Origin: Sulfitobacter sp.
Lineage (GTDB): Bacteria > Pseudomonadota > Alphaproteobacteria > Rhodobacterales > Rhodobacteraceae
Length of the DNA stretch: 35,472 bases
Reading direction: 5' to 3'
NCBI GenBank assembly: GCA_024636445.1
Contig: JAGXHE010000151.1
Location: 1 to 35,472 of the forward strand
This document shows, one piece after another, positions 10,053 through 24,829 of the stretch; within the stretch, counting starts at the first letter, position 1; each line of letters begins with the position of its first letter. Below the pieces are notes generated by a model. That model saw only the letters and a program-made list of their open reading frames with translations, did no database searches and had not been told where the DNA came from. The position numbers were made by a program, and so were the translations under genes.

Positions 10053-10072
10053 CGAAAAAATGACGGGATAGT

Positions 10073-10100
10073 GCCAAGAGTTCCCCGTGTAACTCTTGGC
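10073..10100. promoter_or_regulatory. Perfect 10-bp inverted repeat upstream of the PBP gene
   Basis: GCCAAGAGTT (10073-10082) and AACTCTTGGC (10091-10100) form a perfect dyad with an 8-base spacer, 48 bases before the PBP start codon. There is no T-run after it on the plus strand, and on the minus strand it lies well upstream of glnK, so a regulator site or a leader hairpin is more likely than a terminator. Confidence 0.5.
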
Positions 10101-10148
10101 GCGGGCGGTTACTATGCCTCAAACGAACAAGGCCGAGCAGGGGTCTAG

Positions 10149-19828: not shown

Positions 19829-19912
19829 TCAGCCTTGCGGGGTAATCACCGGCAACGACGGTCTGCCTATGTCGTAAGTTGGATTATGTCGCAACAACGC
19901 GACCTGACATGA

Positions 19913-19940
19913 AAAAGGCCCCCGAATTCGGGGGCCTTTT
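19913..19940. terminator. Bidirectional terminator between phhB and the peroxiredoxin gene
   Basis: A perfect 28-bp palindrome with an AAAAGGCCCCC arm centred on GAATTC has A residues on the left and T residues on the right, so it can end transcription from both converging genes. Confidence 0.9.
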
Positions 19941-19963
19941 CACATTTTTGCAAGCGCTGCGGT

Positions 19964-23245: not shown

Positions 23246-24055
23246 TCAATAAGTCGGGTGAAAGGTTCCGGCCTCGGACAGGGTGAAAATCTCGACCCCG
23301 GTTTCGGTCACCCCGACCGAATGTTCGAACTGCGCTGACAGCGATTTGTCACGGGTCACAGCGGTCCAGTCGTCGGCCAGCGTCTTGGTCTCGGCGCGGC
23401 CCAGGTTCACCATCGGCTCGATGGTGAAGAACATCCCCGGCTCAAGACGTGCACCAGTGCCGGGACGGCCATAGTGCAGCACATTCGGCGGCGCGTGGAA
23501 CACACGGCCCAGCCCGTGGCCGCAGAAATCACGCACAACCGACATGCGGTGCGCCTCGACAAAGCCCTGAATGGCATGGCCGATGTCGCCAAAGGTGTTG
23601 CCGGGTTTCACCGCTTCGATCCCGCGCATCAAGGCGTCGTGGGTCACTTCGATCAGCCGTTCGGCCTTGCGGGGCAGTTTGCCTGCCACAAACATGCGGC
23701 TCGTGTCGCCGAACCACCCGTCGACGATCACGGTGACGTCGATGTTCAGGATGTCGCCATCTTTCAGCTTTTTGTCGCCGGGGATGCCGTGGCACACCAC
23801 ATGGTTCACGCTGATGCAGCTGGCGTGCTCATAGCCCTTGTACCCGATGGTCGCTGACTTCGCGCCTGCATCATCGACCATCTTCGTGATGATGCGGTCA
23901 ATCTCGGCTGTGGTCTGGCCCGGAAAGACATGTTCGGACATGGCATCAAGTACACGCGAAGCCAGCGCTCCGGCGGCATACATGCCAGCGGAATCTGATG
24001 GATCGTAGATGCGTATGCCATCCTTGGTCAGACGGCCCCGGTTTTCTTGTTTCAA
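23246..24055 (-). CDS. map: Type I methionine aminopeptidase
   Basis: Map removes the N-terminal Met from new proteins and is usually essential. The 269-residue product has the metal-ligand pattern of the family: Asp in NIDVTVIVDGW, Asp in FGDTSRMF, His in CGHGLGRVFH, Glu in FTIEPMV and Glu in FEHSVGV. The start is placed at a TTG because GGAGA lies about eight bases upstream and it reproduces the usual distance to GRLTKDGIRIY; the first in-frame ATG is some 25 residues further in and would cut conserved sequence. A striking inverted repeat covers the likely promoter. It converges on the TupA-like gene. Confidence 0.95.
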   Translation of the reverse strand: MKQENRGRLTKDGIRIYDPSDSAGMYAAGALASRVLDAMSEHVFPGQTTAEIDRIITKMVDDAGAKSATIGYKGYEHASCISVNHVVCHGIPGDKKLKDGDILNIDVTVIVDGWFGDTSRMFVAGKLPRKAERLIEVTHDALMRGIEAVKPGNTFGDIGHAIQGFVEAHRMSVVRDFCGHGLGRVFHAPPNVLHYGRPGTGARLEPGMFFTIEPMVNLGRAETKTLADDWTAVTRDKSLSAQFEHSVGVTETGVEIFTLSEAGTFHPTY

Positions 24056-24085
24056 CAGAGGTCTCCGTTGGTCCTGAGCGTTTTC

Positions 24086-24117
24086 GCAATTATAATGCAG
24101 GTGCAGAATAATTGCCA
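24086..24117 (-). promoter_or_regulatory. Promoter-overlapping palindrome upstream of map
   Basis: A 30-bp imperfect dyad spans 24086-24115: GCAATTAT and ATAATTGC outer arms, two inner TGCA blocks and a GG centre, so 12 of 15 symmetric pairs match. On the minus strand, TATAAT (24094-24089) is a perfect -10 box, with a weak -35 TGGCAA (24117-24112) at a 17-base spacing. The dyad therefore covers the core promoter 31 to 60 bases before the map start codon. TATAAT also reads on the plus strand (24091-24096). Confidence 0.5.
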
Positions 24118-24124
24118 GAGTTCC

Positions 24125-24829
24125 CTACATATCAACGGTCAGCGGTTGCCCGACCGTAATAGACTGCGGTGTTATATAGGTTCCGATGCACAAAGTTTCC
24201 ACTCCGGCTTGACGTGCAGCCCTGTAGGCGGCGGCATAGGTCGGGTCGATGTCATGTGCCAATGCAAAGCGGGTGCAGTCGGTGCGCTGCACCAGATACA
24301 GCATGATCGCGCGATGTCCGGCCTGTGCCATGCGGGTCAGTTCGGCCAGATGCTTGGCCCCGCGCGCGGTCACGCTGTCGGGAAACTCTGCCAGTCCGGG
24401 CTGGCGGTTCAGCGTCACCGATTTTACCTCGACATAGGCGTCGGGCAGCTCTGGCGCGCTCAGCAGGAAATCGATGCGGCTGCTCTGGCCGTATTTCACC
24501 TCAGGGCGCACGGAAGTGTACTGCGCCAGCGATGCGATCTCGCGCGCCTCCAGCGCCGCCCGCAACGCGCGGTTGGGAATGGATGTATCGACGCCGGTGA
24601 AATGACCGTTTTCATGATCGACCAGCCGCCAGCCGTACTTCAGCTTTTTCTTCGGGTCGTCATTGGGCTCCAGCCAGATTTTCATGCCCGGCTCTGCCAG
24701 CCCCATCATTGATCCGGGATTGGCGCAATGCGCGATGACTTCGGTGCTGTCTTCCAGCACGCAATCGGCCAAAAAGCGTTTATATCGCCGGATCAGGCGG
24801 GCAGGGACAAGTTGGGTTTGAAAGCGCAT
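24125..24829 (-). CDS. sfsA: DNA/RNA nuclease SfsA-family protein
   Basis: SfsA family proteins were named for an effect on maltose genes in E. coli and carry a nuclease-like domain. The 234-residue product has the N-terminal OB-like part (RRYKRFLADCVLE, then VIAHCANPGSMMGL) and the catalytic-type region RIDFLLSAPELPDAYVEVKSVTL, with Asp and Glu-x-Lys as in PD-(D/E)XK folds. It ends QSITVGQPLTVDM. The ATG at 24829 is taken because the conserved MRFQTQLVPARLIRRYKRF begins there; the longer frame crosses the divergent gene's leader. It is upstream of map on the same strand, separated by 69 bases that hold a map promoter, so map may have its own transcript. Confidence 0.9.
   Translation of the reverse strand: MRFQTQLVPARLIRRYKRFLADCVLEDSTEVIAHCANPGSMMGLAEPGMKIWLEPNDDPKKKLKYGWRLVDHENGHFTGVDTSIPNRALRAALEAREIASLAQYTSVRPEVKYGQSSRIDFLLSAPELPDAYVEVKSVTLNRQPGLAEFPDSVTARGAKHLAELTRMAQAGHRAIMLYLVQRTDCTRFALAHDIDPTYAAAYRAARQAGVETLCIGTYITPQSITVGQPLTVDM

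Follow-up and report, generated by a model that had tools for sequence, protein, structure and literature searches.

The palindrome over the map promoter of a Sulfitobacter sp. is probably a lineage-specific coincidence on a core promoter of conserved spacing

The commonest distance between the -35 and -10 elements in start-site data across species is 17 base pairs (bp), and the T at position -7 is often missing in Alphaproteobacteria, notably before essential genes, according to the accessible part of PMC8407463. For map, the gene of methionyl aminopeptidase, the available portion of PMC1266368 describes two differentially expressed copies in Bacillus subtilis, and an operator or a regulated map promoter of Rhodobacterales was not found in the open-licence literature. 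Here, we describe the region upstream of map in a stretch of 35,472 nucleotides (nt) from Sulfitobacter sp. (GCA_024636445.1, contig JAGXHE010000151.1, positions 1 to 35,472), named as the window, where an earlier note had noticed a large palindrome and proposed it as an operator covering the promoter. The region is most likely the core promoter of map, and the palindrome is probably a lineage-specific coincidence rather than a new switch. The comparison with relatives demonstrates the exact conserved spacing of the promoter, the retained -10 element and the lost symmetry.

The presence of a promoter before map is well supported by a -35/-10 pair that keeps a single exact spacing across relatives. 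The 110 map loci compared comprised 30 loci, six of them from the genus with the window included, and the best 80 ranked by similarity. The layout CTGG-NN-N18-TA (equivalent to CTGG-N20-TA) precedes map in 86 of these 110 loci, and spacers of 17 and 19 nt occurred in none. Smaller TA peaks at spacers 20 (11 loci) and 22 (39 loci) arise from further T-A steps within the -10 element. Similarly, when each CTGG located 45-110 nt before the start was used as an anchor, TA was found at offset 24 in 86 of 101 cases and at offsets 23 and 25 in none. The CTGG is replaced by CTAG in 8 further loci, and neither was seen in 16/110. The core is present in 50 of the 70 loci having sfsA directly upstream as well as in 36 of the 40 without it, and therefore the promoter belongs to map. 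Loci outside the genus have the consensus CCTCTGGCCCTT...CTAAATAGGG, and the promoter reads there as CTGGCM-N16-CYTAWNT with a YTAWNT -10 in 36/80 loci; the -7T is present in 6/6 genomes of the window's genus vs 10/80 outside loci. Further away, CTRG-N20-TA was found in two of six same-family genomes whose map match had given no locus among the 30 mentioned above and in one of 14 same-class genomes, where it lies far upstream; these 14 were taken from 23 same-class genomes with a map match, and G024 was excluded for its weak match.

In the window itself, sfsA ends with its stop at 24125 on the minus strand and is followed by the TTG start of map at 24055. CTGGCA-18 nt-TATAAT was the top scorer (10/12) of three promoter-like sites between 22500 and 25500 (shuffle mean 0.9). 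Its spacer of 18 nt, or 17 when the -35 is read as TGGCAA, falls within the 16-18 bp range of primary-sigma promoters, and the TA expected at the first two positions of the -10 is present in TATAAT. This promoter would probably be read by a primary-type (sigma70-like) RNA polymerase through a -35 of CTGGCA or TGGCAA and a -10 of TATAAT, which stand 18 or 17 bp apart, and the transcript, from a start site predicted on the basis of these elements, would carry a short leader before the TTG. The GCAATTAT beside the -35 and the ATAATTGC around the -10 have probably become complementary by accident in the genome of the window, where they flank a TGCA-N2-TGCA spacer, and no regulator would be expected to bind them.

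The palindrome is the 30-mer GCAATTATAATGCAGGTGCAGAATAATTGC spanning 24086-24115, which matches at 12 of 15 pairs and is made of two perfect 8-bp outer arms and a TGCA-GG-TGCA centre. The earlier note was right on the number of pairs, on the position 31-60 bases before the TTG and on the overlay of both the TATAAT (24094-24089) and the entire spacer on the minus strand, while the end that it gave, 24117, lies two bases too far. The whole window contains three 30-mers with at least 12/15 pairs, and dinucleotide shuffles (n = 60) contain 1.13 on average and 5 at the maximum. Perfect 8-bp arms separated by a gap of at most 20 occur 41 times in the window vs 12-25 times in 10 shuffles, and such arms appeared in 33 of 3000 shuffles of the 80 nt around the promoter. 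Thus, the dyad is locally rare, yet about one comparable 30-mer is expected per window of such size, and the window-wide figure is the fairer one because the site was picked for its dyad.

The fate of the symmetry was followed in six genomes of the genus including the window, all of which have map and belong to related species, so that their columns are not independent. The dyad has 12 pairs in the window and 6, 9, 10, 10, and 9 of 15 in the five congeners, and the outer eight pairs are complete in the genome of the window only, going down to 2/8 in one congener (L006). The -10 boxes are TATAAT, TATAGT, TATGGT, TATAAT, TACAAT, and TATGAT. The congener pairs sum to 44, and the same number of changes placed randomly on the dyad of the window gives 45.9 (probability of reaching 44 or more, 0.835). 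The observed sum is no better than random substitution, and therefore the DNA symmetry of the dyad is not maintained in the genus. In other genera the symmetry is at chance level: the dyad axis retains 4.05/15 pairs over the 80 aligned outside loci, compared with 3.00-4.38 for axes shifted by 1-8 nt, and the best dyad anywhere in these 80 stretches reached 11 pairs in one locus. The earlier note had held that loss of symmetry in relatives that keep the -10 box would speak against an operator, and this is largely what was found, with a small opening left by the conservation of the spacer.

Further copies of the dyad, which the earlier note had suggested looking for, did not form a convincing set in the own genome or in the genus, and the dyad was rejected as evidence of a regulon. 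With up to three mismatches, the own genome gave the one perfect place and three places with three mismatches, and the reversed pattern gave one place. Taken together, outer arms complete only here, chance-level symmetry in other genera and the want of copies speak against an operator over this promoter.

Table 1. Positions of the genes and promoter features around the dyad in the window.
Feature	Position	Strand	Remarks
map, type I methionyl aminopeptidase (TIGR00500)	23246..24055	-	TTG start; NCBIfam
GGAG ribosome-binding site	24063..24066	-	precedes the map TTG start; read from the sequence
Imperfect dyad GCAATTAT-N14-ATAATTGC, inner TGCA-N2-TGCA	24086..24115	.	12/15 pairs
-10 TATAAT	24089..24094	-	TAnnnT in 6/6 congeners
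Promoter spacer, 18 nt	24095..24112	-	14/18 columns invariant across six congeners
-35-like CTGGCA	24113..24118	-	alternative register TGGCAA at 24117-24112 gives a 17-bp spacer
sfsA (TIGR00230)	24125..24829	-	upstream of map, same direction; start inferred; NCBIfam

Elsewhere in the window, a 30-mer at 19912-19941, AAAAAGGCCCCCGAATTCGGGGGCCTTTTC, has 14/15 pairs and resembles a bidirectional terminator, and a further one at 10072-10101, TGCCAAGAGTTCCCCGTGTAACTCTTGGCG, has 12/15 pairs.

Several observations weigh against an ordinary promoter with a chance palindrome. Among shuffles of the local 80 nt, 12/15 pairs were reached in 2 of 5000 only, and 9-10 of the 15 pairs are still present in four of the five congeners. 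The spacer is the best-conserved stretch of the map promoter in the genus for no clear reason, its 14 invariant columns out of 18 standing against 10/18 in the spacer before sufT of the same six genomes and 36/135 four-fold sites of map, and TGCA-N2-TGCA is found within it in 6/6 genomes. This conservation weighs most among these observations and leaves a small opening for a candidate site at the level of the lineage or genus. The layout itself is absent from 24 of the 110 map loci, and where TTG is expected in a primary-sigma -35, the map loci carry CTGG (86/110) or CTAG (8/110), so that a TGG stands oddly in its place. In a sample of 323 genes of one congener, obtained from crude calls of open reading frames of at least 100 amino acids, CTGG-N20-TA occurred 11 times vs a shuffle mean of 13.2, showing no enrichment, and TTGA-N19/20-TA(A/T) occurred 12 times vs 6.2. 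The promoter type is thus atypical, because of the TGG in the -35 and the lack of enrichment of CTGG-N20-TA in the genes of the congener.

The retained core, the conserved spacer and the residual pairs would suit a dimeric regulator acting in this genus only, which would recognise TGCA-N2-TGCA with CAATT and AATTG flanks and block or modulate RNA polymerase at map. The pattern CAATT-N4-TGCA-N2-TGCA-N4-AATTG is indeed found at map in five of the six genomes with at most two mismatches, and elsewhere in the genus it gave two places with three mismatches only. We consider such a regulator unlikely, as L006 retains 2/8 outer pairs and the symmetry decays as random change would have it. The exact core CTGCACNTGCATTA is present once per genome in 6/6, at map only, and its one-mismatch places (30) compare with 25 for the reversed pattern.

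The layout common to map and sufT, a gene of iron-sulfur assembly, is the most interesting loose end. A search of 100 family genomes with the map layout returned a sufT promoter, CTGGAC-N16-CCTATATA (L203-L232), including that on contig 165 of the own genome (L226). CTGG-N20-TA precedes sufT in 23 of 35 loci, or in 18 of 30 when the five loci found through the motif are removed, the query protein having likewise come from a motif match; the remaining sufT loci mostly have CTTTAC, as judged by eye. In the 100 genomes, CTNGAC-N16-CCTATATA was found at 23 places in 22 genomes (22 CTGGAC and one CTTGAC), 22 of them at sufT, vs three for the reversed pattern. CTCTGG-N18-CYTAWATA occurred at 15 places in 15 genomes, 13 of which are map or sufT, and its reverse at three, and CTCTGG-N18-CYTANATAGG occurred at three places, one being map, and its reverse at none. 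Other forms gave no such result: CTCTGG-N3-TT-N15-TANNTA without mismatch was present at one place, map, in 37 genomes vs seven for the reverse, and CTCTGGNCCTT-N15-TANNTA with one mismatch at 63 places in 44/100 genomes vs 73 for the reverse, giving no overall excess, and several matches of the latter precede sufT. The CTGG layout was also seen before an ErpA-like gene (L258) and ccmE (L172), in one genome each, and, in two genomes, before a gene (L180, L193) which we take to be an ATP-binding cassette (ABC) transporter and whose first 120 residues gave no NCBIfam match; these occurrences may be chance.

From these patterns one could suppose that map and sufT, and perhaps the ErpA-like gene, the ABC transporter and ccmE, share a rare CTGG-N18-CYTAWATA layout through which, in Rhodobacteraceae, a single sigma factor or activator would serve them all, together with a TGCA-N2-TGCA binding site in the map spacer of the window's genus, though we regard this as doubtful. 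A general class of CTGG promoters is not favoured, since two inherited -35 variants would suffice to account for the pattern; the layout is at background in the 323 genes of the congener. The words sufT and CTGG are absent from the accessible text of PMC6956336. If one regulator were behind the map and sufT layout, the removal of N-terminal methionine would be linked to iron-sulfur assembly at the promoter level in Rhodobacteraceae. As found, the import is small, with a symmetry due to chance lying on a housekeeping promoter, and the case shows that a few relatives can test a promoter palindrome.

The assignment of the map promoter to the primary sigma factor is tentative, as the spacing and the -10 outside the genus also fit RpoH2. 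An RpoH-type sigma factor might read this promoter instead of the primary one, and the outside-genus CTGGCM-N16-CYTAWNT comes near to the CTTGCC-N15-16-CCTATCT of Sinorhizobium meliloti RpoH2 as given in the accessible part of PMC4843759. This seems quite improbable to us, because an RpoH-type -35 has CTTG, and the 94 core loci carry G (86) or A (8) as their third -35 base, with one extra CTTG match in one of them. The leading C is, moreover, missing from the TAnnnT -10 of the window's genus. RpoH and primary promoter types overlap strongly in any case, as stated in the part of PMC3616915 that is available.

The dyad could also act in RNA, as a hairpin in read-through transcripts from sfsA into map that would stabilise the 3' end of sfsA. 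The 30-mer of the window folds at -10.5 kcal/mol (z-score -4.59; -2.49 for the 56-nt region), and map-sense pairing, with G-U pairs counted, survives a little better than under random change, at p 0.016, or 0.031 with transition bias, values uncorrected for relatedness. In four congeners, however, the z-score lies only between -0.94 and -1.13, L006 has +0.70, and no terminator-like site was called at the dyad, which makes such a hairpin very unlikely. An intrinsic terminator at the dyad was rejected, none being called and the stem being AT-rich with no T-run. A sigma54 promoter with GG at -24 and GC at -12 would agree with the TGG-N10-TGCA present in 6/6 congeners, but it is hardly credible, since across the family GC stands at the -12 place in 19 of 101 CTGG anchors, a frequency also found at offsets 11-13, and TA at the -10 in 86 of 101.

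The core promoter of map with its coincidental palindrome can be set beside three known systems, each compared as far as the accessible parts of the sources describe it. It resembles the alphaproteobacterial primary-sigma (sigma70) promoters in its TATAAT -10, in the 17-bp spacer that results when the -35 is TGGCAA and in the absence of the -7T from 70 of the 80 outside loci, and differs from them in a -35 with TGG where TTG is overrepresented and in the T that all six members of the genus have at -7. The RpoH1 and RpoH2 promoters of S. meliloti (PMC4843759) agree with it in spacing and, as far as the outside loci go, in the -10, whereas map has CTGG in place of CTTG and the TATAAT of the window is without the leading C. 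The IscR Iron-Rhodo-box of Rhodobacteraceae (PMC4618611), compared by its description, is likewise a palindrome that overlaps or adjoins a promoter, in bacteria of the same family; unlike that box, the map dyad is present at a single gene and decays between species.
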